Positions 7,010 through 32,789 of a DNA stretch of 41,944 nt are shown here, piece after piece (positions within the stretch are counted from its first letter, which is position 1; the number at the start of each line of letters is the position of its first letter). Location of the stretch: IMG/VR virus record IMGVR_UViG_3300044613_001317, positions 1 to 41,944 of that record, one strand, 5' to 3'. Origin of the DNA: a virus. The translations under genes were made by a program, and so were the position numbers. Below the pieces are notes generated by a model. That model did not search any database. It saw only the letters and a list, made by a program, of their open reading frames with translations, and was not told the origin of the DNA.

Positions 7010-7047
7010 CATCCTATCAGACATGTCGTCTGTAAGGGGGAAAGGGA

Positions 7048-9189
7048 ATTAAACGACTACTAAGAATAGTAACAGCCACAGTTTTAGCCTTTGGCTGGCT
7101 ACTTATAGCCCCCCAGGAAGCCCACTCTGATGATCCACTCACAGTAGCATACCAAGAAATACAGGAACTTAACGATAGCGTAGATGACCTTGGCTATCAA
7201 GATGATTTTATAGATCTTATAGAGATAGCAGAAAATAAGTTTGCCTCAGCCACAAATGCGAAGGAACTTAAAGATGATGCCCATGATGCCCACGAAGATG
7301 CAGTAGAAGCAGAAGCCACAGCCTTAGAAGCAAAGAACCTTGCCCAGTCAAATGTGGATGGGCAAACAGCCACGGTAGCCTTGGCCCTTGAACATAAAGA
7401 CAACGCCCTTGAAGAAAAGAATGATGCTCAAGATGCACTCAGCATAGCCAATATTAATGTTCAAACTACTCAATCAAGTATGCAGGCTGCTGGAGAAACA
7501 GGTTTGGCATACACTGTTTATACTCTTGTTAGACAGGGTAATGTTGCTACCCCAGGATCTGTGCTTTGTTCTGGTACCTGGAACTCAAGTAGCATGCAAC
7601 TTCCAGTTTGCGGTAATAGATACGAAAACTTTATAGTTAAGTTCACTGGTCAAATAACAGTACCGTCTTGGTTCACATCAACATATTTTGCAGGATATAC
7701 AGATGATGGATTTAGAATGTATGTAGACGGAAATCTTGCAATAGATCAATGGATAGAGCAAGGAACTACCTGGAGCGATTATTCACCAGTATATGATGTT
7801 AGCGAAGACAAAACATTGAGTGTAGAGATTTGGTGGTACAACGGTGGTGGGCCAGGATCTTATCATCTTGGATGGGCAATTCCTGGAGGATGGACTGGAG
7901 CAGGTTGTGACTATGCGGGAAATCCAAGAGTATGGGGACAAAACTTTAGTTGTAATCTTAATACATTTTCTTCTGGCTCAGGACCAACACAGGAACAGAT
8001 CAATGCTTACAATGATGCTGTTGCAGCACAGGCTATAGCACAAACAAACTATAACAATAAATTGGCAGTATACAATGACAAACTAAGCGTATACAACTCT
8101 GAGAATACAACACTGTCATCAATGAATCAGGTTTTGCAAACCAAAACACAGGAACATCTTGATGCCATTGCAGATACAGAAGATGCTTTAGAATTGAAAA
8201 ATAGCAAAATACAAATATATAATCAATCAATAACTGATTTAAATAATGCTATTGATAACGCATGGCGTTACTATGATGAGCAACTACAAAGAGAAATTCA
8301 GTCTGCCATTGCTCAAGCAGCAGCCAATGCTGCAGCCAATCAGCCTACCCCAGAACCCACCCCAGAACCTTCTCCAGAACCAACTGAAGAGCCAACTGAA
8401 GAACCCACACCAGAGCCATCCCCAGACCCAACAGATGAGCCAACTGAAGAACCTACACCAGAGCCATCTCCAGAGCCTACAGTAGACCCTACAGATGAGC
8501 CTACACCTGAACCTACCCCAGAGGTTACCCCAGATCCAGAACCAACTGAAGAGCCAGTTGTAGAACCTACTGTAGAACCTACACCAGAACCTTCACCAGA
8601 ACCTGGACCAGGTCCAGAGCCAGAAGATAATCCTTGGACTGAACCAGATGTAGAAATTACTGATAAGGTATTAGCATCACTCGTTCCTGAAAAAGGAACG
8701 GGAACAGAAGAAGATCTATCTAATGTTATTGCCAACCTTACAAGTAAGGATAATAAGTTAGTCACTCTTTCCCCTGAACAAATCACAGCAGTTAGCCAGA
8801 CACTGAGAGCCTTGACTCAAGAAGCAAAGGCTGAGGTTGCAGAAGACCTTGGTATTAAGCCTTCAGAAGTTGCACAGGTTGCTGAGCAGATGAAATCTAA
8901 CCCAGCACTTGCAGAAGCGTTTGTTGAGTTCGCAGATAGAGCAGGGAACGCAGGAGAAACCCCAATGCCCTTTACATTAGCAGATGCAGTAACAGAAGTA
9001 CAAACAGAAGCATTCTTGGCAGACCCACTTGGAGCAGTATTTGAAGTGGATGTTACAGAACTCCTATCTAATTTCTCTGAGTTGGGTATGGATATGACAG
9101 ACGATCAGAGAGAAAAGGCCCAAGAAGTCATTATCCCAGTAATCATTGTTTCACAGATTGCAAATGTAATGATTGGGATGAGGAGGTAA
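7048..9189 (+). CDS. Exported PA14-domain protein with coiled coils and Pro-Glu-Thr repeats, probable ATT start
   Basis: The frame is open from 7036 and encodes about 713 residues from ATT 7048. A signal peptide is evident: IKRLLRIVTATVLAFGWLL followed by IAPQEAHS. Next come an acidic coiled coil, a PA14-type carbohydrate-binding domain (about residues 145-255; GYTDDGFRMYVDG, then VEIWWYNGGGPGSYHLGW), a second coiled coil, a repeat tract (residues about 432-531) and a helical C-terminal domain. The first ATG/GTG/TTG in frame is GTG 7354, which would remove the signal peptide, while AAGGGGG at 7034-7040 is ideally spaced for ATT. A +1 frameshift from ATG 7023 or a sequence error is the alternative. 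Likely a cell-surface or virion adhesin. An internal start at 7354 is the conservative annotation. Confidence 0.75.
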   Translation: MKRLLRIVTATVLAFGWLLIAPQEAHSDDPLTVAYQEIQELNDSVDDLGYQDDFIDLIEIAENKFASATNAKELKDDAHDAHEDAVEAEATALEAKNLAQSNVDGQTATVALALEHKDNALEEKNDAQDALSIANINVQTTQSSMQAAGETGLAYTVYTLVRQGNVATPGSVLCSGTWNSSSMQLPVCGNRYENFIVKFTGQITVPSWFTSTYFAGYTDDGFRMYVDGNLAIDQWIEQGTTWSDYSPVYDVSEDKTLSVEIWWYNGGGPGSYHLGWAIPGGWTGAGCDYAGNPRVWGQNFSCNLNTFSSGSGPTQEQINAYNDAVAAQAIAQTNYNNKLAVYNDKLSVYNSENTTLSSMNQVLQTKTQEHLDAIADTEDALELKNSKIQIYNQSITDLNNAIDNAWRYYDEQLQREIQSAIAQAAANAAANQPTPEPTPEPSPEPTEEPTEEPTPEPSPDPTDEPTEEPTPEPSPEPTVDPTDEPTPEPTPEVTPDPEPTEEPVVEPTVEPTPEPSPEPGPGPEPEDNPWTEPDVEITDKVLASLVPEKGTGTEEDLSNVIANLTSKDNKLVTLSPEQITAVSQTLRALTQEAKAEVAEDLGIKPSEVAQVAEQMKSNPALAEAFVEFADRAGNAGETPMPFTLADAVTEVQTEAFLADPLGAVFEVDVTELLSNFSELGMDMTDDQREKAQEVIIPVIIVSQIANVMIGMRR
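8341..8640 (+). repeat. Coding Pro-Glu-Thr/Ser tandem repeat tract
   Basis: About 100 codons encode tandem units such as PEPTPEPSPEPTEEPT with variants (PDPTDEPT, PEVTPDPEPT). The DNA itself is a degenerate repeat of CCAGAACCT-like 9- to 12-mers. Such tracts act as extended, rigid spacers in actinobacterial wall proteins. Their many prolines and threonines are plausible sites for hydroxylation or O-glycosylation by enzymes in this window (inference). Confidence 0.9.
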
Positions 9190-11585: not shown

Positions 11586-12245
11586 ATGATAACTAAAAAA
11601 AATAACATTTCAGGATCCCAATGGTGGATAAACTCTGAAAACTTATCATTGCCTCAAATTTTAATGGAGTCTGGACTACCAGACAAATGGTCTAAGTATA
11701 ACTCAAAAGAAATTTTAAACATAAAAAGCATACTTAAACCAATAAATAACTATGTCCTTAATCTATATCCAAAGCCAGAAATTATAAACATAACAAATAA
11801 CATAGTTACTTTTAGGCAAAGAACTCACGCCGAGATTTGGGTTGAAGAAAGAAAAGATGGCACACTGTATGCTTTAGATAAGTGTCATCAAAGACAGTTC
11901 TATCCATCTTTAAACAATCTAGAAAATAAAGAGTGTTTTGATCCAACCTATAAGTTTTATATACCCTGGTTTATAAATAAAAATGTTAGCATTAAGATAG
12001 CCAGAGTAGAGGATGAGCCTACACCATTCTACATAGGTGAAAAAAATATTATTGGAAAGCCCCTGCCACATCTATCAGACTATGCCTATTCAGAGTTTGT
12101 TGATTTTAAAATTAAGAATACTGGGGAATACTACTTAAAAGAAAAGTATGCTATTATTAGTAAGAGCACGGCAATGTACGATATGTCTGTTGTCTTAAGT
12201 GACGAAGAGATATCACAAATAAAGGATTACTATGGACAGCAATGA
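11586..12245 (+). CDS. Unknown protein, first gene of the decoration cassette
   Basis: 219 residues, no signal peptide or membrane span. Aromatic- and Asn-rich, with segments RQRTHAEIWVEERKDGTLYA and KFYIPWFINKNVSIKIARV that suggest a beta-rich fold. It overlaps the DUF6065-like gene by 14 nt and ends in DEEISQIKDYYGQQ. Its phrase about IPWF followed by a beta strand loosely resembles the downstream DUF6065-like protein, but homology cannot be claimed by eye. Function unknown; context suggests a role alongside the oxygenases. Confidence 0.7.
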   Translation: MITKKNNISGSQWWINSENLSLPQILMESGLPDKWSKYNSKEILNIKSILKPINNYVLNLYPKPEIINITNNIVTFRQRTHAEIWVEERKDGTLYALDKCHQRQFYPSLNNLENKECFDPTYKFYIPWFINKNVSIKIARVEDEPTPFYIGEKNIIGKPLPHLSDYAYSEFVDFKIKNTGEYYLKEKYAIISKSTAMYDMSVVLSDEEISQIKDYYGQQ

Positions 12246-12996
12246 GTTAGAATTAACTTTCATTCCACACGATACGACCACAGGTCTATTGTCTCCAGAG
12301 CCATCCTATAAAAAAATACCACAGTGGTATAGAGATTTGGCAAAACATTTTACAACTAATGACCTAAAGTCTTTGTGTCCAGTAAACGATAGGGGCGGGG
12401 ATGGGTCAAATGTTTCTACAAAACTATGCTTGCCATTTCAAGATGCAATGTCTCTTGGGTATATGTATTTACTGGAAGATGACCTAGAAGTAAAACTTGA
12501 TATAGATGGAAAGCCATCTCTGTCCTGGAAAAAGAATTTTATGATGATGGACAAAAGACCTAATGTTGATATGGCAATACCAAAAGATGTTCACCCAATA
12601 CATTTTGGGGTTAAGATGCAATGGTATTACGAAACACCAAAAGACTATTCTCTATTGATGACTATGCCAATAAACAGACCAGACCTACCGTTCTGGATTC
12701 CTTCTGGCATTGTTGATTCTGATATATGGGGACTGCCTGCGTTTATACCATTTTTTATAAAAAGAGATTTTGAAGGAGTCATTCCAATGGGAACACCAGT
12801 GTTTCAGATGATTCCAATTAAAAGAGAGCCTTGGAATTTAGTAGTTGATGATTCTTTTGAGGCTATAGAAAAACACCAACTAAGATCAGAAAACAGAAGG
12901 TCTGACATAACGGCACACTACAGAAAATTTGCATGGAGAAAAAAAGAATATGCAAAGTATAACAAAGAACAAGCAAACAACAAGGGAGATGAATAA
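12232..12996 (+). CDS. DUF6065-like protein
   Basis: 254 residues. It follows the pattern I associate with DUF6065: an N-terminal KKIPQWYRDLAK, then TKLCLPFQDAMSLGYMYLL with acidic residues, a central SLLMTMPINRPDLPFWIPSG, and PMGTPVFQMIPIKREPW near the C-terminus. The biochemical activity of the family is not known. Such proteins occur in phages next to 2OG-oxygenase genes, as here. It shares one base with the following oxygenase gene (TAATG), so they are translated together. Confidence 0.7.
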   Translation: MDSNELELTFIPHDTTTGLLSPEPSYKKIPQWYRDLAKHFTTNDLKSLCPVNDRGGDGSNVSTKLCLPFQDAMSLGYMYLLEDDLEVKLDIDGKPSLSWKKNFMMMDKRPNVDMAIPKDVHPIHFGVKMQWYYETPKDYSLLMTMPINRPDLPFWIPSGIVDSDIWGLPAFIPFFIKRDFEGVIPMGTPVFQMIPIKREPWNLVVDDSFEAIEKHQLRSENRRSDITAHYRKFAWRKKEYAKYNKEQANNKGDE

Positions 12997-13637
12997 TGTT
13001 AAGTAACAGAGAACATAAGTTTTTTGAAAAATATTTAGACAACGATTTAGATCAGTTGGCTAAATTTTTAGAACAAAAATACGAACTAATTCAAAGCGCT
13101 AAACTTCGTGGCGTTGAAACAATGGAAAATGATCCAGGGTATTGGCTAGAGTCTGGAAGTTTGTCAACTGTAAAGTGGAGAGAGTATAATGTATTTCAAC
13201 TTTATCATCCATCTCTTCATAAACTATACTCCGAACTATCAAAAACTGTTAAAGAAGCCTGTGAATATTATGGCGTAGACTTTGAAAAGCAGCAATATTA
13301 TGTTCAGGGTTGGTTTAATATTAATACCACAGGAAATGGAAAGTTAAACTGGCACGATCACGGTGCACCTGGCGCTCCTAATTTTCATGGGTATTACTGT
13401 GTAAAGGCTGAGCCATCAACGACATACTATAGACTCTTTGGAGATCCAAATAGAGAAGTGGCAAATCACAACATAAACAATAGAATGATTGTTTCAGAAA
13501 TGGGACACCCTCATGCAATGGGAGACTGGGACTGGGAAGGTTCAAGAATAACAGTTGCGTATGATATTCAACCTCTGCAGTCTTTGCTTATGGGTGGAGA
13601 ACATACAATTGAACAGCACTGGATTCCATTGTTATAA
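12996..13637 (+). CDS. Putative 2OG-Fe(II) oxygenase
   Basis: 213 residues. The segment QGWFNINTTGNGKLNWHDHG places His120 and His122 after a beta strand, followed by HGYYCVKAEPSTTYYRL, a later His171/His173 pair (GHPHAMGDW) and Arg184 (GSRITVAYDI). This is the iron-binding His...His and 2OG-binding Arg layout of the 2OG-FeII_Oxy_5-like group; the second iron ligand appears to be Asp121 or His122. Substrate unknown. It stands directly upstream of the glycosyltransferase and the prolyl-hydroxylase-like gene. Confidence 0.7.
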   Translation: MLSNREHKFFEKYLDNDLDQLAKFLEQKYELIQSAKLRGVETMENDPGYWLESGSLSTVKWREYNVFQLYHPSLHKLYSELSKTVKEACEYYGVDFEKQQYYVQGWFNINTTGNGKLNWHDHGAPGAPNFHGYYCVKAEPSTTYYRLFGDPNREVANHNINNRMIVSEMGHPHAMGDWDWEGSRITVAYDIQPLQSLLMGGEHTIEQHWIPLL

Positions 13638-13638
13638 A

Positions 13639-14472
13639 ATGAAAAAAATATTAGTTTATTTTTATGGGTACAAAAGCAAGTTGCTACCACAAGCAGTAGA
13701 GCAACTCATAAAAAATCAAAGTGGTCAAAATGATATACATGTTGTCGTATACGACCAAACAAATATATCAAGGCCAGAAAAGTTTTTAGGAATAGAATAC
13801 AATCATATCTACTGGGATAGATTAATATCTAGATTTAAATGCTTTTATCTTCTAAAAAAAAGAAAAGATTTTGATTTTTTTATGTATGTTGATGGTGCCA
13901 AAATGTTTGAAAAGGATTGGGATGCTGAACTATTAAGATACCAGGACGAATCAGATATTATACTTTCAGGCAATCACGACATTGTTTTTAATAAAAATAA
14001 CTATAAGTTTTATCCAGACTGGAATAAAACAAGCATTGCAATGGCAACAAAAAACAACTGGTTTGTTAAAGATTTTTTCTTTATGAAATTTAGTTTGTTT
14101 GAACTATTTCCTGATATTTCAATATTTAAATATTATGGAGTTGAGGAATATGTTTCCATGTATGCAGCGCACAAAGGTATTTCTATAGTTGCTCTTCCAA
14201 CTAATTTTGTTATTGATCAAGAGCCTAGAATAGAAGAAAATGATTTTGTTCCATTTTCTCTATATCACAACTATTCAAAAGTTATAGATTCTTTTAAATC
14301 AAAAGATGAATCTATGCCTGGAGTAAAAGAACTTATGGATCTTGTAGACTATGATTTCCGTAGTTTAGAATACTTCCCATATAATACAAACGATGTAGAG
14401 TATACATTTTTTTCAAATCTAGATAAAATTTCTGAGCAAAGATTTCATGTAGTGCAGAATGAGGTATATTGA
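13639..14472 (+). CDS. GT-A glycosyltransferase, hydroxyproline GlcNAc-transferase-like
   Basis: 277 residues from ATG 13639 (1 nt after the preceding stop). It starts KKILVYFYGYKSKLLPQAVE like nucleotide-sugar transferases. The segment FFMYVDGAKMFEKDWDAELL carries the acidic metal/nucleotide-sugar motif in the layout of the GlcNAc family PF11397, whose eukaryotic member glycosylates hydroxyproline on Skp1. A later HNYSKV segment may supply the C-terminal His of GT-A enzymes. Its neighbour is a prolyl-4-hydroxylase-like gene, which makes protein hydroxyproline an attractive acceptor. The family call is moderately sure; the acceptor is inference. Confidence 0.65.
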   Translation: MKKILVYFYGYKSKLLPQAVEQLIKNQSGQNDIHVVVYDQTNISRPEKFLGIEYNHIYWDRLISRFKCFYLLKKRKDFDFFMYVDGAKMFEKDWDAELLRYQDESDIILSGNHDIVFNKNNYKFYPDWNKTSIAMATKNNWFVKDFFFMKFSLFELFPDISIFKYYGVEEYVSMYAAHKGISIVALPTNFVIDQEPRIEENDFVPFSLYHNYSKVIDSFKSKDESMPGVKELMDLVDYDFRSLEYFPYNTNDVEYTFFSNLDKISEQRFHVVQNEVY

Positions 14473-15035
14473 TGATAACATTGCCTGTAGTAATTAAAAA
14501 TTTTATTGCTGCTGAAGATGCACAGACACTAATAAATGAGATTAACAGTCCATCAGAAGTTAATCCTTACCCAGAATATTACAAGACTAGGTATGGAGGA
14601 ACTGCTTATCCATACAACAAGGTAGTTTTAGATATTCAAAAAAAATATTCTTTACTATCTAACGAGACACACCAAAGACTTAATCCAGAAGAAACAAAGC
14701 AAATAAAAACATTTAAATCTTTTGGTTCAGTTTGGACAAAAGGTAGTTCAGCAAACGCACACGCTGACGATCAGCCACCAGAAGAATTCATTGAATATAG
14801 TACGGTAATATATCTTGACGATAATTTTACTGGAGGAGAATTATATTTCCCAAATCTTAACTTTACATATAAGCCAGAAAAATATGATGGGATATTTTTT
14901 GTTAGTGACGGAGAATTATGGAGTCATGGAATATCCGAAATAGAAAGTGGACATAGGTCAACCCTACTCTACATGCACACAACACAAACAGAACATTCAG
15001 GGGGGTATACAATTGTTGATCCAGACCTTAATTAA
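14472..15035 (+). CDS. Prolyl-4-hydroxylase-like 2OG-Fe(II) oxygenase
   Basis: 187 residues from ATG 14472, sharing one base with the glycosyltransferase stop and preceded by GAGG at a 7-nt distance. The iron site is H-x-D in NAHADDQ, then VIYLDDNFTGGELYFPN, a distal His in WSHGISEI, and the 2OG-binding Arg in GHRSTLLYMHT. This is the P4H core fold used to hydroxylate peptidyl proline. The order glycosyltransferase then hydroxylase suggests modification of the same residue in sequence. Confidence 0.85.
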   Translation: MITLPVVIKNFIAAEDAQTLINEINSPSEVNPYPEYYKTRYGGTAYPYNKVVLDIQKKYSLLSNETHQRLNPEETKQIKTFKSFGSVWTKGSSANAHADDQPPEEFIEYSTVIYLDDNFTGGELYFPNLNFTYKPEKYDGIFFVSDGELWSHGISEIESGHRSTLLYMHTTQTEHSGGYTIVDPDLN

Positions 15036-15114
15036 AAAAATTAAGACATACTTAATACTAAGAGAAATAAAGAAAAATGATAAAAAAAACAGATACCTGT
15101 ATTAAGGATAATAT

Positions 15115-16539
15115 ATGATAATTCTTGGAGTAAACGAAACATCTCATGACGCATCAGTATCTCTAATCAAAGATGGAGAAATTCTTTTTGCAGGGCATGC
15201 AGAAAGATATAGCAAACAAAAAAATGACTGGTATATCAATGATAGTTTAATAAAAGATGCTTTGCAGTATGGGGCACCAGATCATATTGCCTACTATGAA
15301 AAGCCCCTTCTGAAGGCCTCTAGGCTGGCTCTAAGGGGTGGATCTGGAGACTGGAAACCAAGGTTTGATATTCCTGGTATACCAAGGAAACATTTTAGTC
15401 ATCACTATTCTCACGCTGCAGCGGGATACTACACTAGTTCTTTTAGTGATTCCGTAATAGTTGTGCTTGATGCTATTGGAGAATACAACACATCTACAAT
15501 ATGGGTTGGTGAAGGAGATAAGATTAGGCTAAAGTATAAGCAAAACTATCCAGTTAGTTTTGGATTATTTTATTCTGCTTTCACAAAACTAATAGGTCTA
15601 ATGCCAAATCAAGAAGAATATATCATGATGGGAATGGCAGCATACGGAGACTGGACAAAATACTATAGAAAAGTAGATGAGTATTTTCCTTCATATACAA
15701 AACAAAAATATAATTTTCATCAGGGAATAAATGATTGGGGAGTAAAGATCACTGAGCAAGATAGGTTTGATATTGCTGCAGCAGTTCAGGTTGTCTATGA
15801 GCAAAGACTAAATGATTTTATGCACATGGCATACTCTATTACTGGAAAAAAGAATTTAGTATTTATGGGTGGTTGTGCACTTAACTCATCAGCAAACACT
15901 ATGCTTTGGAACATATTTGATATGATCTGGATTATGCCAAACCCTGGAGATGCTGGCAGTTCTTTGGGTGCTGCTGCTGCACTTTATGGAAAACATCTTG
16001 AATGGAAAGACCCATACCTTGGTTATGATCTGGGTGGAAAATATCCTATTCAGAAAATTATTGAGGGGATATTAAAAGACGGTATAGTAGCAGTAGCATC
16101 AGGAAGAGCAGAATATGGTCCAAGAGCATTAGGAAATAGATCAATTCTTGCAGACCCAAGAGATCCACTAATCAAAGACAAAGTAAATAGAATTAAACAG
16201 AGAGAATTATTTAGGCCATTTGCTCCTGTAGTTTTAGCAGATCACGCATATAGATGGTTTGATATGGATTTTGAAAGCCCATATATGCAGTACACAGTCA
16301 AGTGCTTACAGCCAGACAAGATACCTTCTGTGGTTCATGAAGATGGTACTTCTAGAGTTCAGACAGTTACAAGAGAACAACATCCAGGATTGTACAGGGT
16401 TATAAATAAATTTTATCTACAAACTGGAGTTCCAATACTCTTGAATACTAGTCTTAACATAAAGGGTCAACCGCTCCTAAATGATGAAAACGATATACTT
16501 AAATGGGAAAAAGAATACAACTTTACAATATGTAGGTAA
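15115..16539 (+). CDS. NodU/TobZ-type carbamoyltransferase
   Basis: 474 residues. The N-terminal Kae1-like domain begins ILGVNETSHDASVSL, has the metal-binding HHYSH at 96-100 and FMGGCALNSSANT. The C-terminal YrdC-like part has the family signature ASGRAEYGPRALGNRSILAD and ends LLNTSLNIKGQPLL. Family enzymes make carbamoyl-AMP from carbamoyl phosphate and ATP and transfer the carbamoyl group to a hydroxyl of a sugar, antibiotic or modified base. The protein is somewhat shorter than typical members but all main motifs are present. Substrate is open: a sugar laid down by the adjacent glycosyltransferase, or modified DNA; no hydroxymethyl-nucleotide synthase is in the window. Confidence 0.88.
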   Translation: MIILGVNETSHDASVSLIKDGEILFAGHAERYSKQKNDWYINDSLIKDALQYGAPDHIAYYEKPLLKASRLALRGGSGDWKPRFDIPGIPRKHFSHHYSHAAAGYYTSSFSDSVIVVLDAIGEYNTSTIWVGEGDKIRLKYKQNYPVSFGLFYSAFTKLIGLMPNQEEYIMMGMAAYGDWTKYYRKVDEYFPSYTKQKYNFHQGINDWGVKITEQDRFDIAAAVQVVYEQRLNDFMHMAYSITGKKNLVFMGGCALNSSANTMLWNIFDMIWIMPNPGDAGSSLGAAAALYGKHLEWKDPYLGYDLGGKYPIQKIIEGILKDGIVAVASGRAEYGPRALGNRSILADPRDPLIKDKVNRIKQRELFRPFAPVVLADHAYRWFDMDFESPYMQYTVKCLQPDKIPSVVHEDGTSRVQTVTREQHPGLYRVINKFYLQTGVPILLNTSLNIKGQPLLNDENDILKWEKEYNFTICR

Positions 16540-16576: not shown

Positions 16577-17191
16577 ATGGCAGCAAAAGGTAGTCTAGAA
16601 GCAATCATTGAGATTGCAAAAAAGGAAGTGGGCACAATTGAAGGCCCTAAAGATAATGAAACAAAATATGGCAAGTGGACTGGGATGAATTTTCAGCCAT
16701 GGTGCCAGTCATTTGTTTCTTGGTGTGCATTTACATCGGGATTAGATCCAAAGAAGTATCCAAAGTCTGCATCAACAGTAGCAGCGTCAGATTGGTTCAA
16801 GAAGAATGGGCGTTGGTCAGATGCTCGTAATGATGATCCACAAGCAGGAGACTGGATTTATTTTGATTTTCCAGAAGATGGTGTAAATCGTATTTCACAT
16901 GTTGGAATCTGTATCAAGAACAACGGAGATGGAACAATCCAAGTTATTGAGGGAAACACTTCAGGAACTGCAAAGGGAGATCAGCGCAATGGCGGAATGT
17001 GCGTAGAGAAGACTCGTGGTTATGTAAAAAACAACAAGAAGAAGTTGCTTAATGGAGTTGTCGGTTGGGGTCGTCCAGTTTATACTGGTGAAGAAAATGC
17101 TCCGCTTCTCAATAAGGTGGTAGCACCAGTTGTAGCAAAGCCTGCAGTAAAGCCAGTAGTTAAGAAACCAGTAGCAAAGAAGGCTAAGTAA
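16577..17191 (+). CDS. CHAP-domain endolysin (probable)
   Basis: 204 residues. Catalytic residues of a CHAP peptidase/amidase can be placed: Cys43 (PWCQSFVSW), His108 (RISHVGICI) and Glu125 (QVIEGNT). The tail after about residue 170 is low-complexity Ala/Pro/Lys/Val (KPVVKKPVAKKAK), possibly a wall-contact segment. CHAP enzymes cleave peptidoglycan stem or cross-bridge peptides; here it is the best candidate for host lysis. It has its own promoter and an excellent ribosome site, so strong expression is expected. A tail-associated hydrolase is the alternative. Confidence 0.8.
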   Translation: MAAKGSLEAIIEIAKKEVGTIEGPKDNETKYGKWTGMNFQPWCQSFVSWCAFTSGLDPKKYPKSASTVAASDWFKKNGRWSDARNDDPQAGDWIYFDFPEDGVNRISHVGICIKNNGDGTIQVIEGNTSGTAKGDQRNGGMCVEKTRGYVKNNKKKLLNGVVGWGRPVYTGEENAPLLNKVVAPVVAKPAVKPVVKKPVAKKAK

Positions 17192-20724: not shown

Positions 20725-21006
20725 TTGAATAAATTTAAATGGAAAGACAACGCTGTTTGTTTAGATTATGACACAAATTTATTCTTTGACAAATATGAAG
20801 ATGATGAAATACTAAGGCCAGCAATAGATGCTTTATGCTTTTCCTGCCCAGTAAGAAAAGAATGTTTTTCTGTTGGAATTTCAGGTAAAGAGTGGGGTGT
20901 TTGGGGCGGGGTATACTTAGAAAATGGAGAGATATCAAAAGAATTCTCTAGCCACAAGAGTAAAAATGACTGGGGAATGACATGGCAATCATTAACAATG
21001 GAGTAA
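20725..21006 (+). CDS. WhiB-family Fe-S regulator
   Basis: 93 residues with the four WhiB cysteines at 12, 38, 41 and 47 (C...CFSCPVRKEC) and the signature WGVWGGV at 57-63. WhiB proteins carry a 4Fe-4S cluster, bind the principal sigma factor and redirect transcription; they occur only in Actinobacteria and their phages. The usual basic C-terminal tail is weak here (SSHKSKND). The start codon is TTG directly after the upstream stop, with no obvious ribosome site, so translation may depend on coupling. Confidence 0.93.
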   Translation: MNKFKWKDNAVCLDYDTNLFFDKYEDDEILRPAIDALCFSCPVRKECFSVGISGKEWGVWGGVYLENGEISKEFSSHKSKNDWGMTWQSLTME

Positions 21007-21247: not shown

Positions 21248-21651
21248 TCCAGCCGATATTGTTAGTTATTTTATCAGTCACATCTACGGTATTAGGTTTT
21301 CTTTTTTACATTCAAAGAAAAAAGACTATACAGATAGTTGCCAATATGCTAGATTTTATGATGATCCAGGAAGCACAAAAACAAGAAACAAAAACAGAGC
21401 AAGAACAGTCTAATGAAGACTTTTTAAAATTTATTTCAGATTCTCGTGACTGGGCATACACCTATATAGACGAAGTGCAAGCATCTTTAAATAAGTTTAT
21501 TAGTGATATTGAGCCAGAGATTAGTTATTTTAAAGAGTATGGGGATGTCGGATCTATGGCTCCCAACTACTACTCTATGAAAAAAATCACTGGAGCATAT
21601 GAAGAACTAAAGAAACTGCTACCAGAAGACTATGGTAAAATAGATACATGA
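21244..21651 (+). CDS. Membrane-anchored coiled-coil protein
   Basis: 135 residues: one N-terminal membrane segment (ILLVILSVTSTVLGFLFYI) followed by a charged helical stretch rich in Gln/Glu (MIQEAQKQETKTEQEQ) and a soluble helical domain. The layout is that of spanins and other lysis or membrane-anchored scaffold proteins, but there is no second partner gene. Overlaps both neighbours by ATGA. Confidence 0.65.
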   Translation: MIQPILLVILSVTSTVLGFLFYIQRKKTIQIVANMLDFMMIQEAQKQETKTEQEQSNEDFLKFISDSRDWAYTYIDEVQASLNKFISDIEPEISYFKEYGDVGSMAPNYYSMKKITGAYEELKKLLPEDYGKIDT

Positions 21652-22250
21652 TTAATGATCCATCAAACAAAGATGAAGTCTATTTAAAAAATGTTGAAAA
21701 AATAGGAAGTTCTTCAGAAAACATTCGATATATAGAAAATATCTTGTCTGAAGAAGAGCACACAGTTTTACTTGAGTATGTAAAGGCCCGTAAAGAATGG
21801 GTTCACGAGCCATGGGATGCCGAGACTGTTGGTCCAGACCAGATGCCACAAGACATTTTAAATATGTTAGAAAAAATATTTGTATTTGTTCAAAATACTG
21901 CCACAGATTTTTATGATGTAAAGATTAATGATTTTAAAAGGGACAACCTTGTTTTAATTAAGTTTCCACGGGGTCTTGTTTTATATCCACATATAGATAC
22001 AGATTCAGTAGAATCAAATCACATTGCATCGATATACTATATTAATGACGACTATGTTGGCGGAGAGATAAACTTTCCAGATTACAATGTAAAGATTCAT
22101 CCAAAGCCTAACAGTGTTGTTTTCTTTCCTGGCAATGAAAATTACTTACATGAAGTCCTTACGATTCGAAGTGGAGACCGATATAGCACATCTATGTGGT
22201 TTCAGTTTACTGGTTCTACTTTTAACAAAAATGCAGAATGGTATAAATAA
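21648..22250 (+). CDS. 2OG-Fe(II) oxygenase, paralog family member 1
   Basis: 200 residues. The N-terminus KIGSSSENIRYIENILSEEE is a motif shared with three other oxygenases in this window. The catalytic core has H-x-D in YPHIDTDS, then YYINDDYVGGEINFPDYN, FFPGNENYLHEV with the distal His, and GDRYSTSMWF with the 2OG-binding Arg. Prolyl-hydroxylase-like. It forms a tandem pair with the next gene, separated by 2 nt. Confidence 0.88.
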   Translation: MINDPSNKDEVYLKNVEKIGSSSENIRYIENILSEEEHTVLLEYVKARKEWVHEPWDAETVGPDQMPQDILNMLEKIFVFVQNTATDFYDVKINDFKRDNLVLIKFPRGLVLYPHIDTDSVESNHIASIYYINDDYVGGEINFPDYNVKIHPKPNSVVFFPGNENYLHEVLTIRSGDRYSTSMWFQFTGSTFNKNAEWYK

Positions 22251-22252
22251 AA

Positions 22253-22804
22253 ATGACAATATCTGAATTAGGAAATTCTGTAGACAATATACAAATTACA
22301 GAAAATGTTTTATCTATAGAAGAGCATAGACAACTTCTTTATTATACAACCAATCTTGATTCTTGGGTTACTCAGCCTTGGGGTGTTAAATTTTTTAAAG
22401 ATGGACTGCCAGAACAAATCATCAGTATATTAGAAAAAGTTTTTAGGATTGCCGATAAAAAATGCAGAGAAACCTACAATGTAAGTCTTAATGTTTTTGA
22501 AAGAAAAGAAGTACACCTGATTAAGTTTGAAAAAGGCTACAAGATGAATGAGCATGCAGATACTACGGGGGATTTTGCAGCAATATACTATATTAACGAT
22601 GACTATGAAGGAGGAGAAATAAACTTTACAGATCATAATCTTAAGATTAAGCCAAAGTCTAATAGTCTTATTACATTTCCCAGCAATGAAAACTACTGGC
22701 ACGAAGTTCTTGAAAATACTGTAAAAGAAAGATACTCCTCTACTCTATGGTTTACAATTGAAGGATCTAGCCGTGTAAGACCCGAAAGTGGACTGGTCAG
22801 ATGA
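22253..22804 (+). CDS. 2OG-Fe(II) oxygenase, paralog family member 2
   Basis: 183 residues, clearly duplicated from or with the preceding gene: ELGNSVDNIQITENVLSIEE, then NEHADTTG (H-x-D), YYINDDYEGGEINFTDHN, YWHEVLENT and KERYSSTLWF (Arg). The segments before the core differ, suggesting different substrates. Stop overlaps the following ATG. Confidence 0.88.
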   Translation: MTISELGNSVDNIQITENVLSIEEHRQLLYYTTNLDSWVTQPWGVKFFKDGLPEQIISILEKVFRIADKKCRETYNVSLNVFERKEVHLIKFEKGYKMNEHADTTGDFAAIYYINDDYEGGEINFTDHNLKIKPKSNSLITFPSNENYWHEVLENTVKERYSSTLWFTIEGSSRVRPESGLVR

Positions 22805-28494: not shown

Positions 28495-29037
28495 TTATAT
28501 TATTATCTTTTTTTCTAAAAGTTTGTTGTAATAATAATAGCACAAACCAATATTTAGATCATCTGACAAATCTTTATTGTAGTCTGGCAAATCTTTGCTT
28601 GACTCAACAAAAAAGGGATCTGGCTGTCCGTAATCTCCATCAAAAAGATGATGCTCATCTTCCTTAATATCTAATAGTTCTATTAACTTTTTAATTGTAG
28701 TGTCTGGGTATTTAACAAGATCATTAAAGTCTATAACATAGTCTGCATGCTCATATAAAAAACTATAAAGAAGTATGTATTCTGATACAATTTGATTAAC
28801 TCTTTGCCATGTAACCTCATAAACACCACGATGTTCCGCTGCAATATATGAGGCAATGCTGTCTCTAGGATCTCTTGCTATGGTAATTATTACCCTTTGC
28901 TTATTGTGATCCTTATCAAATGCCCAATTAATTGTATGAGTTTTTTCAATACGGAATCCTGACTCTTTTTCAAAAAGTCTATCAAAATAGTGGGATCCGC
29001 TTCTTGGGTATGTGCTTAAATGCGGTTTGTATTTCAC
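28495..29037 (-). CDS. Sulfotransferase
   Basis: 180 residues from GTG 29037, chosen because it overlaps the upstream stop as GTGA; GTG 29070 is an alternative. The PAPS loop is LSTYPRSGSHYFDRL at the N-terminus and the 3'-phosphate motif is VIITIARDPRDSIASYIA. A short member of the family, lacking the longer C-terminal lid. Coupled to a tiny zinc protein. Confidence 0.8.
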   Translation of the reverse strand: MKYKPHLSTYPRSGSHYFDRLFEKESGFRIEKTHTINWAFDKDHNKQRVIITIARDPRDSIASYIAAEHRGVYEVTWQRVNQIVSEYILLYSFLYEHADYVIDFNDLVKYPDTTIKKLIELLDIKEDEHHLFDGDYGQPDPFFVESSKDLPDYNKDLSDDLNIGLCYYYYNKLLEKKIII

Positions 29038-29159
29038 GACACTAAGCCCATAGATAGGTGACCAAGGCACACATCAGCAACAATATAGTCGGAATGATTA
29101 ACGACAATATCAAAATGCGTTGCGTCTTTATCACAAAAAAAACATTTAGACTTCTTCAT
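29034..29159 (-). CDS. Tiny zinc-binding protein
   Basis: 41 residues. CFFCDKDATHFD and VADVCLGHL give a C-x2-C ... C-x2-H site. Similar to 22801-22965 and loosely to the DUF7455-type protein. Leaderless start, coupled to the sulfotransferase by GTGA. Confidence 0.6.
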   Translation of the reverse strand: MKKSKCFFCDKDATHFDIVVNHSDYIVADVCLGHLSMGLVS

Positions 29160-29174: not shown

Positions 29175-30602
29175 TTAAACAAAATCAAACCACAGTGGCA
29201 TAATATATCTTGATCCATTTGCAGGAGCAACATGATACCAGTAGTGAATATTTCCAGGGAATAGAACTAAATCGCCAGCCTTGGGCTTAAATGATACACC
29301 TTGATGAATAAAAGACAACTCTCCACCATCGTAATCGTCATTAAGATATACCCATCCTGCTAAATGGTTTGAATCTTTATGTCCTAAGTCGTCTATTGGA
29401 ATTACTGGACTATTATTATGCACCCATTCAGCAAAACGAGAGTTTCTTGGCTTTAGTTTAACACCATACTCTTCTTCCACCAAAGATTTTATTTGAGGTA
29501 TATATCTTTCTGAATAGTCTAGTGAGTCGTAATAAAGTAAAGACAAGGTAGGCTTTCCAGCGCTATCAGGCTGTAGAGGACGATTATTGCTTGTCTCTGT
29601 ACCCTTGATTAGTTCTATAATGTTGTTGCACTCTTCTTTACTTAGATAGTTACTAAAGATTTTTACATTATTAGGATTGTTTCCAATCTTAGTAAAGTTT
29701 TCTATAGTAAGTTCAGATATTACCACCTTCTTTTGTTCTGGGATAACTATGTTATTAAAATCTTTTACTAATTCTAGCAACTTGCTAATGTCTTCTTGAT
29801 CGGTATGTATCATAAAATCATATATTCCAAATTGTTCAGACAACTGTCTTATTTGTCTAACAACATCAACCATAGGTCCTTTAACATGGTGATGCTGCTT
29901 TCTTACTGGTGCATTTTTATCGTATCTAACATTTTGCTCTTCGTCGGGATGATTTATAATTAGAGGATCGATAATAACTATTGGCTTTACTCTACTAAGA
30001 TCAATCTTTTTAAATTGATCTCTAAATAGTAAGTTATCATCTACATAAATATACTCACAATGCTTGTTTGCTATTTCAATAGTAGTGTCTGAAGAACCAA
30101 CAACAGCCATATGTGTCTTATGTTGGTGCGTTTTCATCAAATCCATAACCTTATCCATCCAGACTGCAGAGATAGCAACTCTTTTTTCAAGAGTATCTAT
30201 TAGTGATGGATCGTGCATATAGTGTTCTAGAACTATTCTTTCTGCAGGACCATTTCCTTCATCTCCCCATCTTCCAGCAACAAGGTTTACACCAATTCTT
30301 CCAGGAGCAAATCGGTTTAATGTTTCACAAATTTTAGCAGCATAGTCAGGGCTTGTTCCGTATGCTGGCAAAGCAATTGTCATAATTAGTTGGTTTGTTT
30401 TTTGTAGCGCTTCTTGTATAACTAAGGAAAAGTCTATGCCTCCTGGACCGTAAGGAAGCAAAACAGATTTTACATTAGCATCATCTAGTTCTGTGGCCAT
30501 CTTAAGGATTCCATTAAGATCTAGGTTTTCAATACTGTCATTTATCTGCCAGTGCCTTCTCCACATCCAGTGAAATGTTATGGGCTTATTTATATTATCC
30601 AT
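29175..30602 (-). CDS. Luciferase-like (LLM) oxidoreductase fused to a 2OG-Fe(II) oxygenase
   Basis: 475 residues, two enzymes in one chain. Residues 1 to about 285 match flavin-dependent monooxygenases of the SsuD/alkanesulfonate type: ITFHWMWRRHW, TIALPAYGTSPDYAAKICET, FAPGRIGVNLVAGRWGDEG. Residues about 295-475 are a prolyl-hydroxylase-like domain with KIGNNPNNVKIFSNYLSKEE, H408-x-D410 (DLGHKDSN), VYLNDDYDGGELSF, His457 and Arg465 (GSRYIMPLWF). The second half is the same paralog family as 30873-31484. Joining two oxygenases suggests sequential oxidation of one substrate; for SsuD-like enzymes that would be a C-S bond or a flavin-peroxide reaction. I do not know this combination as a described enzyme. 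Confidence 0.85.
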   Translation of the reverse strand: MDNINKPITFHWMWRRHWQINDSIENLDLNGILKMATELDDANVKSVLLPYGPGGIDFSLVIQEALQKTNQLIMTIALPAYGTSPDYAAKICETLNRFAPGRIGVNLVAGRWGDEGNGPAERIVLEHYMHDPSLIDTLEKRVAISAVWMDKVMDLMKTHQHKTHMAVVGSSDTTIEIANKHCEYIYVDDNLLFRDQFKKIDLSRVKPIVIIDPLIINHPDEEQNVRYDKNAPVRKQHHHVKGPMVDVVRQIRQLSEQFGIYDFMIHTDQEDISKLLELVKDFNNIVIPEQKKVVISELTIENFTKIGNNPNNVKIFSNYLSKEECNNIIELIKGTETSNNRPLQPDSAGKPTLSLLYYDSLDYSERYIPQIKSLVEEEYGVKLKPRNSRFAEWVHNNSPVIPIDDLGHKDSNHLAGWVYLNDDYDGGELSFIHQGVSFKPKAGDLVLFPGNIHYWYHVAPANGSRYIMPLWFDFV

Positions 30603-30872: not shown

Positions 30873-31484
30873 CTATGGGATTGTAAACCAAATTGGCACG
30901 GTATATCTTACACCAGACAGGACTTCTTTTACTTCATGGGCATAGTACATATTTCCAGGGAACATAATGAGGTCACCAATCTTAGGCTTAATAGTAACAT
31001 CGTGTGTTGCAAAACTTAGTTCCCCACCCTCATAGTCATCATTAAGATATATAAGTGTAGGTAGGTGGTTGTCCGTTACCCATCCGAGATCGTCAACATG
31101 TAGGGCTAGTTTGGTACCCTTGTCCCATCTTGCAATGTTAAGATAGTCAAGATCTTTCTTCTTTATATTTTCATGGTTATATGCTTTTTTAACTTCATCT
31201 AAAACTCTACCGAATATGTTATATTTATCTATAACGCCCTGATAGTTGTGAATCCATGCAACAGGATTATCTTTGTCGTCTTTTTGAGAAACAAAACTAA
31301 TTCTTCTAGTTTCTTGAATATGGCTAAGAAGATAGTCAATCTCTTCAGAAGAAAGAAAATTTGGTATAACTTTTATGTTGTCTGCAGAATTGCCGATTTT
31401 TTGAAAAAATTCAAGATACGCTGGGGTTCTTTCGATTTCTCCTGGGTGGTTTCCCACTGCTTGATTGTTAACTATGTATGCCAT
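30873..31484 (-). CDS. 2OG-Fe(II) oxygenase, paralog family member
   Basis: 203 residues from ATG 31484, fixed by a leaderless box. FQKIGNSADNIKVIPNFLSS is the shared N-terminal motif. The core has H-x-D in LALHVDDLG, IYLNDDYEGGELSFATHD, FPGNMYYAHEVKEV with the distal His and SGVRYTVPIWF with Arg. Closest in the window to the oxygenase half of the neighbouring fusion, so the two probably arose by duplication. Confidence 0.88.
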   Translation of the reverse strand: MAYIVNNQAVGNHPGEIERTPAYLEFFQKIGNSADNIKVIPNFLSSEEIDYLLSHIQETRRISFVSQKDDKDNPVAWIHNYQGVIDKYNIFGRVLDEVKKAYNHENIKKKDLDYLNIARWDKGTKLALHVDDLGWVTDNHLPTLIYLNDDYEGGELSFATHDVTIKPKIGDLIMFPGNMYYAHEVKEVLSGVRYTVPIWFTIP

Positions 31485-31490
31485 ATAACC

Positions 31491-31496
31491 ATTATA
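31491..31496 (-). promoter_or_regulatory. Leaderless -10 box
   Basis: TATAAT on the - strand, 6 nt before ATG 31484. Confidence 0.6.
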
Positions 31497-31566
31497 CACT
31501 ACGAAAAAATCTTTAAAGTTCGGCGCAAAATAGAAGTTATAAACCTCTATATGCCCTATACGGGCA

Positions 31567-32237: not shown

Positions 32238-32789
32238 TCAATGTATGGATTTATCTAGCATGGCATTATAAATGTCATATAGTTTGGATAGGTCTGTATC
32301 TTCTATATATTTTCTAATCATCTCATACTCTCTAACCTTCTTGCTAGATATCATATGGCCATGTTCAGCGTAGTCCTTAAGTCGACCAGACTCATAGCCC
32401 TCAGTGATGATCTCAACATCCATCTTAATGGCTATGGCCTTGATCGTTTCAACGGGGAAATTTATTAGTCTATCGTAATCTATTATAATATCAAATTGAT
32501 CAATCATAGTCATATCATCTGTGCCAGTAAAGTACTTAGAGTAATCGTTTAGCCAAAGACTCCTTAAATTATTATTAACTAACTTGTCTAAAGTAGTACT
32601 TGAGGTATCGTAAAAGTATCTCATAGAAACCTCAGATGCCAGAAACTCTACTGGATCTCTGGCTATCGTTATCATTTTGTTATTTTGAAGAGTATGAAAC
32701 CTTTCCACAAACAAACCAGTATGTTGTAGTATCCTGTCTTGAAGATAGTTTGAGCCAACTCTAGGCAGGGTAACTATCGAATAATCCAT
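32238..32789 (-). CDS. Sulfotransferase
   Basis: 183 residues. PAPS loop IVTLPRVGSNYLQDRIL and 3'-phosphate motif KMITIARDPVEFLASEVS. Same compact type as 28495-29037. DIIIDYDRLINFPVETIKAI in both proteins (there VIDFNDLVKYP) shows they are paralogs. Leaderless start. Confidence 0.82.
   Translation of the reverse strand: MDYSIVTLPRVGSNYLQDRILQHTGLFVERFHTLQNNKMITIARDPVEFLASEVSMRYFYDTSSTTLDKLVNNNLRSLWLNDYSKYFTGTDDMTMIDQFDIIIDYDRLINFPVETIKAIAIKMDVEIITEGYESGRLKDYAEHGHMISSKKVREYEMIRKYIEDTDLSKLYDIYNAMLDKSIH

Follow-up and report, generated by a model that had tools for sequence, protein, structure and literature searches.

A conserved phage gene unit joining two DUF6065-like proteins, a probable 2-oxoglutarate oxygenase and a glycosyltransferase

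Protein hydroxylation together with sugar addition is hardly known in phages. A linear virus contig of 41,944 bases (IMG/VR record IMGVR_UViG_3300044613_001317, positions 1 to 41,944; this whole stretch is called the window below) raises the question of whether phages carry such a system: at 11586-16539, a cassette of six genes encodes two DUF6065-like proteins, two apparent 2-oxoglutarate (2OG)-Fe(II) oxygenases, a glycosyltransferase (GT) and a carbamoyltransferase. An earlier reading of the DNA (the original prediction) had proposed that five of these proteins form one pathway that hydroxylates, glycosylates and carbamoylates a proline-rich protein. We found that four of the genes make up a real, conserved phage module, which has apparently not been described before in the open-licence literature. 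Our best explanation, to which we give an even chance, is that the cassette is a hydroxylation and glycosylation machine for repeat-rich virion proteins; its reactions, substrate, sugar and order of steps are all things that we infer.

The four-gene unit and its linkage in related viruses

All six open reading frames (ORFs) were found on the plus strand where they had been predicted. The first, g1 (11586-12245, 219 aa), is followed by the DUF6065-like gene (12232-12996, 254 aa), the oxygenase gene OX1 (12996-13637), the GT gene (13639-14472, 277 aa, with a conserved ATG start, MKKILVYF), a gene similar to prolyl 4-hydroxylases (P4H-like; 14472-15035, ATG start, with a TTG at 14469) and a NodU/NolO-type carbamoyltransferase gene (15115-16539, 474 aa). 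The first five do overlap or touch, with overlaps of 14, 1 and 1 bases and a single base between OX1 and GT; the carbamoyltransferase gene starts 79 bases past the P4H-like gene, and a CHAP endolysin gene comes next, at 16577. Comparison with four relatives (24 pairwise comparisons) gave dN/dS values of 0.03-0.21 for all six genes (omega 0.11-0.21 for g1), and this purifying selection argues that they are real genes rather than chance ORFs. Promoter-like and terminator-like sites showed no excess over shuffled sequence.

Viral contigs were scanned with GT, g1 and OX1, which gave 83 loci with a distinct OX1 once identical copies had been merged, and 58 loci after those >95% identical were dropped. 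In 48 of the 58, g1 and DUF6065 lie upstream of OX1 and GT lies downstream, all within three genes; nine loci have none of the partners, and one, at a contig edge, lacks g1. Strict adjacent gene order is kept in only 37 of the 58 because OX1 or DUF6065 is often doubled. Two of the nine loci without partners hold an extra OX1 copy, one beside a unit cut by the contig end (L182) and the other in a phage with the unit elsewhere (L118). Since the g1 and GT scans select for linkage, the fair set consists of the loci found by OX1 alone (42 loci, from the best 80 of 180 matches). There the linkage is nearly all-or-none: 33 loci have all three partners, eight have none and one is cut by a contig end. 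Among the 21 distinct g1 loci brought in by the g1 scan alone, 17 are complete, three are cut by contig ends and one (L167) is without OX1. The fixed unit is thus g1, DUF6065-like, OX1 and GT, and the linkage in relatives that the original prediction called for is supported in this form.

The two remaining genes are less constant. Around the 33 complete units of the OX1-found set, a P4H-like gene is near 31 and a carbamoyltransferase gene is near 14. The carbamoyltransferase is therefore an optional, accessory member, and the idea of five enzymes in one fixed pathway did not hold. This count also favors a different partition of the cassette, in which the four-gene unit is one system and the P4H-like protein and the carbamoyltransferase are neighbors with other substrates of their own. 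OX1 stands directly ahead of a carbamoyltransferase gene at some loci that lack the unit, and the window's virus holds four further P4H-like genes at scattered places, both as this partition would have it. It fits poorly with the position of the P4H-like gene, which directly follows GT in 47 of the 60 distinct GT loci and is no more than three genes beyond it in 56 (counted with a broad P4H profile). We consider such a split a realistic possibility, if on the unlikely side.

A contig of 118,981 bases (G002) carries a cassette identical to that of the window, and we therefore place the window at about 32,444-74,387 of that contig. A WhiB match above the cut-off was found by profile search in 15 of 17 phage contigs, in the window at 20725-21006. 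WhiB is treated as an actinophage marker in passages of PMC10202952, and the phages carrying the unit, which are freshwater phages, are probably actinophages.

None of g1, OX1 and GT had a tblastn match in 50,697 phage records. In the open-licence papers searched, we found none on a phage prolyl 4-hydroxylase together with a glycosyltransferase and a carbamoyltransferase, none on phage hydroxyproline and prolyl hydroxylase with tail fibers, and no mention of DUF6065.

Families and predicted folds of the encoded proteins

The enzyme classes named in the original prediction are supported. The ligand motif of 2OG-Fe(II) oxygenases is H-x-D...H...R/K. In OX1, five residues are invariant across 32 sequences (H120, H122, H131, H173 and R184, i.e. 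H-x-H...H...R). No Pfam 2OG family matched any of the 32 members, the commonest weak match being PoNi_C (13 members). Profile-profile comparison by hhalign with a PF13759 set gave a probability of 90.7% (E 1.3e-6), with the H-x-H and H...R elements aligned, against 0.05-0.11 for GT, g1, DUF6065 and the carbamoyltransferase; OX1 is probably a 2OG-Fe(II) oxygenase of the PF13759 type. The P4H-like protein is of the PF13640 type, scoring 26.6 bits, just below the cut-off of 27 (E 1.2e-5), and its ligands H97, D99, H152 and R162 (H-x-D...H...R) are invariant in 12 sequences. The carbamoyltransferase matches PF16861 with 181.5 bits and PF02543 with 120.7 bits (cut-offs 27 and 24) and belongs to phrog_1601. 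A truncated enzyme was ruled out, as nine aligned relatives have 473-477 aa.

For GT, the original prediction had pointed to PF11397, the family that would add N-acetylglucosamine (GlcNAc) to hydroxyproline. The likeness stood for the family: PF11397 is matched by 12 of 33 members (E up to 1; best 2.9e-9), and hhalign of the GT family against true PF11397 proteins, namely relatives of a PF11397 protein in the same virus, gave a probability of 95.5% (E 1.6e-8, 183 columns), compared with 0.07-0.86% for five other families. It did not stand for the window copy, which has no Pfam match and so none over the PF11397 cut-off. In searches of whole contigs, a cassette GT passes that cut-off only in G025 (22.2 versus 21 bits), and the PF11397 matches of G002, G017 and G018 are non-cassette genes. 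The AlphaFold model of GT, of modest confidence (pLDDT 59, pTM 0.62), has a predicted GT-A-type fold. Its top Foldseek matches are the cytidylyltransferase KdsB and TarP. Cellulose synthase leads in VIA (Z 15.6, 194 residues, 3.6 Å), together with GalNAc-T2 (Z 14.8), and human LH3 (Z 13.2) and mimivirus R699 (Z 12.9) are lower matches. A sequence search of solved structures with GT gave no match.

A DSH-like acidic metal motif is expected in PF11397, and its Asp, D85, is nearly invariant in the close GT set. Across the full set of 33 members this residue varies. Because the window GT has no Pfam match and the motif Asp is not kept family-wide, we infer hydroxyproline-GlcNAc chemistry from family likeness, and the reaction may be a different one.

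By profile comparison, g1 is a second, distant DUF6065-like protein, a point not made in the original account. Aligned by hhalign with the family of its neighbor, it gave a probability of 93.3 (E 2.7e-7, 162 columns), with 0.05-0.53 for the other 14 family pairs. It has no Pfam or PHROG match and no match in the phage collection. The second gene corresponds to phrog_7084, a PHROG of unknown function; PF19541 is matched by 20 of 38 members of its family (E up to 1; best 6.8e-6), with the window member unmatched, and at one locus (L240) a cassette-family member has a true PF19541 protein (1.2e-24) as its direct neighbor. Among the phage records that match the DUF6065-like protein, 49 of 50 are haloarchaeal viruses and one is a cyanophage.

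A dUTPase-type fold is predicted for this protein from its AlphaFold model (pLDDT 82, pTM 0.75). A Foldseek search of the PDB named a dUTPase or dCTP deaminase in 49 of the 50 listed titles (best E 1.4e-3, none <0.001), VIA gave Z up to 9.6 (129 residues, 3.7 Å), and BFVD gave unnamed or uncharacterized relatives first and dUTPases after them. A link between DUF6065 and dUTPases by sequence profile was tried and rejected (6%, not significant; 7% for dCTP deaminase, 0.1-1.8% for unrelated families); g1 gave 0.1% with dUTPase, i.e. no link, and a sequence search of solved structures with the DUF6065-like protein returned one chance-level match. In the best profile alignment, GIVDSD falls on motif 3 of dUTPases and GTPxxQ on their motif 4. 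Compared with dUTPases, which have five catalytic motifs, the protein keeps stretches like motif 3 (VDSD) and motif 4 (GTPxxQ). It differs from the dUTPase/dCTP deaminase superfamily in an altered motif 2, a missing motif 5 and an extra C-terminal helix; with motif 5 missing, a working dUTPase is unlikely. No classical dUTPase was found in the 17 phage contigs.

The predicted fold lends some weight to a role in DNA or nucleotide hypermodification, in which DUF6065 and g1 would handle nucleotides, OX1 and the P4H-like enzyme would oxidize the base or nucleotide, and GT and the carbamoyltransferase would decorate it. Both of the latter classes occur in known phage DNA modification systems. Haloviruses have a class II ribonucleotide reductase (RNR) gene adjacent or close to DUF6065, and in the window's virus such a gene stands directly behind a second DUF6065; in several relatives, a protein similar in length (676-696 aa) and to the eye comes after the unit. 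Against this role, PF00303 (the thymidylate synthase / hydroxymethylase family) is lacking in the 17 contigs, some of which may be fragments, and base hydroxymethylation was rejected on this ground. TET/JBP-type oxidation was likewise rejected, as the Tet_JBP matches in 16 of 17 contigs all fall below the cut-off and, where checked, lie in P4H-type genes. Moreover, the GT is of a type known to act on protein, and the unit is near tail genes in relatives. DNA or nucleotide hypermodification thus seems unlikely to us.

Tail-gene neighborhood, candidate substrates and proposed role

The proposal of virion repeat proteins as the substrate is made mainly because of the position of the unit near tail genes. 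At 13 loci, a protein with Fn3 domains, (S/T)PFGF repeats and a C-terminus that is Hint-like by eye is closely followed by the unit or by OX1. This presumed tail protein and its homologues have tandem FGA or (S/T)PFGF repeats (examples are L034:8493-10271 and L110:3285-4592). In five of the 13 loci, g1 starts 6-7 bases past this FG-repeat protein; in seven, a small gene starts 4-13 bases and OX1 about 620-660 bases past it; and in one, OX1 starts after 43 bases. At L103, the FG-repeat protein stands between a tail fiber protein (Mtd_N, PHROG tail fiber) and g1, and at L101 a portal gene is downstream of the unit. The homologue at L110 has a match (2.7e-6) to a virion structural protein PHROG. 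Considering 29 distinct FG-repeat proteins, most of whose loci were found via the unit, DUF6065 is within 4.5 kb downstream of 27 and OX1 of 23. In all seven contigs whose FG-repeat protein stands apart from the main unit (G002, G009, G011, G013, G015, G021 and G023), the first cassette-family gene met downstream is DUF6065, at ≤4.5 kb. In the window's virus, an FGA-repeat homologue at 102.5-104.3 kb of the contig is followed by two small ORFs, the second DUF6065 and the class II RNR. Two contigs binned with Bacteroidetes genomes show related arrangements: an Fn3 protein, two 2OG-type genes, two DUF6065 and a 2OG gene in a row (L240), and 2OG, DUF6065 and 2OG near T4-like neck and tail genes (L253). 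In haloviruses HF2 and HJTV-2, DUF6065 lies between the RNR and tail genes, on the opposite strand.

Whether the repeats themselves track the oxygenase was read by hand, because a looser automatic count also scored G002 and G009 positive; G012 and G024, where the FG-repeat protein was not found, were left out. Ser/Thr-Pro FG repeats are present in 8 of 8 contigs with OX1 ≤4.5 kb downstream (G014, G016, G017, G018, G020, G022, G023 and G025) and in two of six without an adjacent OX1 (G013 and G015); the other four (G002, G009, G011 and G021), where only DUF6065 is adjacent, have at most one (S/T)PF in their FG repeats. In a tree test with the looser count, each of 200 pairings gave 0 or 1 pair for the association and none against it, so that with at most one informative pair the association counts as a hint only.

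In the proposed machine, the substrate would be this presumed tail protein and perhaps also an exported protein with a PA14 domain and a Pro-rich repeat at the window site. OX1, aided in most of these phages by at least one P4H-like enzyme, would hydroxylate side chains of the repeats, the PF11397-like GT would put a sugar on the new hydroxyl, and the carbamoyltransferase, where present, would cap the sugar or a hydroxyl with a carbamoyl group. Both DUF6065-like proteins would probably not act as dUTPases but serve as partners that bind the substrate or a nucleotide. A more specific version, which we offer tentatively and hold to be rather improbable as a whole, is that DUF6065 branched off within the dUTPase fold and no longer takes part in nucleotide metabolism, that the pair serves a PF13759-type hydroxylase and a PF11397-like GT in placing hydroxy-linked sugars on FG or Pro repeats of the tail, and that the unit is the first phage counterpart of the Skp1 and collagen systems.

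Several observations weigh against a virion-protein modification machine. A dUTPase fold has no obvious part in protein glycosylation, and a class II RNR gene is close to DUF6065 both in haloviruses and in the virus of the window. In the GT set of 33, it is the WD following D85 that is invariant, while D85 itself, the Asp of the DSH-like motif, varies. L167 has g1, DUF6065 and GT without OX1. As G013 and G015 carry Ser/Thr-Pro repeats with no OX1 adjacent, proline content and OX1 adjacency are not cleanly matched, and the place of the FG-repeat protein in the virion is itself presumed. G012 has the unit next to a PA14-family protein that lacks a Pro-rich repeat (no more than 4 Pro per 40 residues). 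Finally, according to passages of PMC7019647, a search for hydroxyproline in purified particles of PBCV-1 was negative although this virus has an active P4H; a viral P4H therefore need not leave hydroxyproline in the particle.

The neighbors of the cassette in the window direct attention to the host surface instead. On one side are the PA14/Pro-rich exported protein, an HslV-like protein and an S8-like exported protein, and on the other is the CHAP endolysin (export judged by eye). NodU-type enzymes act on sugars and small molecules. With these neighbors, the cassette might alter a cell-wall glycan, a surface protein or a metabolite; one purpose could be to block superinfection. No signal-like stretch is seen by eye at the start of any of the six proteins, and in other lineages the unit stands directly behind the presumed tail protein; we consider modification of the host surface or of a small molecule improbable.

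The PA14 protein itself (7354-9189, plus strand) had been put forward as the acceptor. Its Pro/Glu/Thr repeat is real (8338-8617), and its PA14 match is just below the cut-off (23.7 versus 24 bits); the frame is open from 7036, and 7036-7354 encodes a signal-peptide-like stretch with no ATG, GTG or TTG there. Sixteen phage contigs yielded nine PA14-family proteins, seven of them with a Pro-rich repeat. The two that lack the repeat are in G012, where the unit is at the same site, and in G018, where it is not. Pro-rich PA14 proteins are also present where OX1 stands without g1 and GT, and the unit of G021 has as its neighbor a Pro-rich protein of 720 aa that the PA14 profile used does not recognize. 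The acceptor role is therefore weak, and the unit is more closely tied to the FG-repeat protein, the presumed tail protein. The full version of the original prediction, in which prolines of the PA14 repeat are hydroxylated, given GlcNAc and carbamoylated by the adjacent NodU-type enzyme, draws on the frequency of the repeat and the PF11397 likeness of GT but, given G012, the Pro-rich PA14 proteins without g1 and GT, and the inconstant carbamoyltransferase, is very doubtful.

Modification of virion repeat proteins would have parallels in several known systems. We take Gnt1 to be a PF11397 member. In the Skp1 pathway of Dictyostelium and Toxoplasma, Gnt1 acts on Skp1 that has been hydroxylated, and the pairing of a P4H-type oxygenase (PhyA) with a hydroxyproline-directed glycosyltransferase resembles that of the cassette oxygenases with the PF11397-like GT (passages of PMC3515798). 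The cassette differs in being phage-borne and in having OX1, two DUF6065-like partners, an optional carbamoyltransferase and a presumed repeat-protein substrate. Mimivirus likewise encodes enzymes, L230 and R699, for hydroxylating and glycosylating a repeat-rich protein of its own (passages of PMC9546862), but their target is collagen lysine in collagen repeats, whereas the cassette has other sequence families and presumably acts on other residues, in FG or Pro repeats. The PBCV-1 prolyl 4-hydroxylase is a viral P4H that acts on Pro peptides, and it differs in that no linked GT unit appears in the passages of PMC7019647. T4-like cyanophages with Nol-like carbamoyltransferases and 2OG oxygenases have the same enzyme classes as the cassette; in S-MS29, five 2OG-type genes and a carbamoyltransferase are within 13 kb of the tail fiber gene, and passages of PMC10436341 assign no specific role to the 2OG genes. 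They differ from the cassette in that g1, OX1 and GT had no match in the phage records mentioned above.

This analysis provides DUF6065 with a predicted fold and places it, together with g1, in a fixed genetic context; a set of 2OG oxygenases common in aquatic phages now has a function that can be tested. If the virion-protein reading is true, phages hydroxylate and glycosylate their own host-contact proteins. This would bear on how phages of abundant freshwater bacteria adsorb to and recognize their hosts, and the unit would be a compact, bacterial-type system for hydroxy-linked glycoproteins.

Further oxygenases and modification genes in the same virus

Three more P4H-like oxygenases are encoded in the window (21648-22250, 22253-22804 and, on the minus strand, 30873-31499). 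A 475-aa protein (29175-30602, minus strand) has a C-terminal 2OG oxygenase domain behind a long N-terminal part that is flavin monooxygenase-like by eye and has no Pfam match. Near these genes are two sulfotransferase-like PF00685 proteins, both on the minus strand, at 28495-29070 (1e-5, over the cut-off) and 32238-32789 (0.0032, below the cut-off). G+C content is 0.31-0.34 at 13001-15000, over the GT and P4H-like genes, against 0.36-0.38 around them, with comparable dips elsewhere in the window.

Outside the window, at about 82.2-83.1 kb of contig G002, the same virus has a bona fide PF11397 enzyme (L033:8160-9128, minus strand). About 1.8 kb from it is a collagen-like GPQ/GPA-repeat protein (L033:10932-11663, plus strand), and the two are a possible second hydroxylation-glycosylation pair. 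Cytochrome P450 is, to our knowledge, rare in phages; one is encoded at L033:6556-7740, about 80.6-81.7 kb of contig G002 (PF00067, 7.7e-57).

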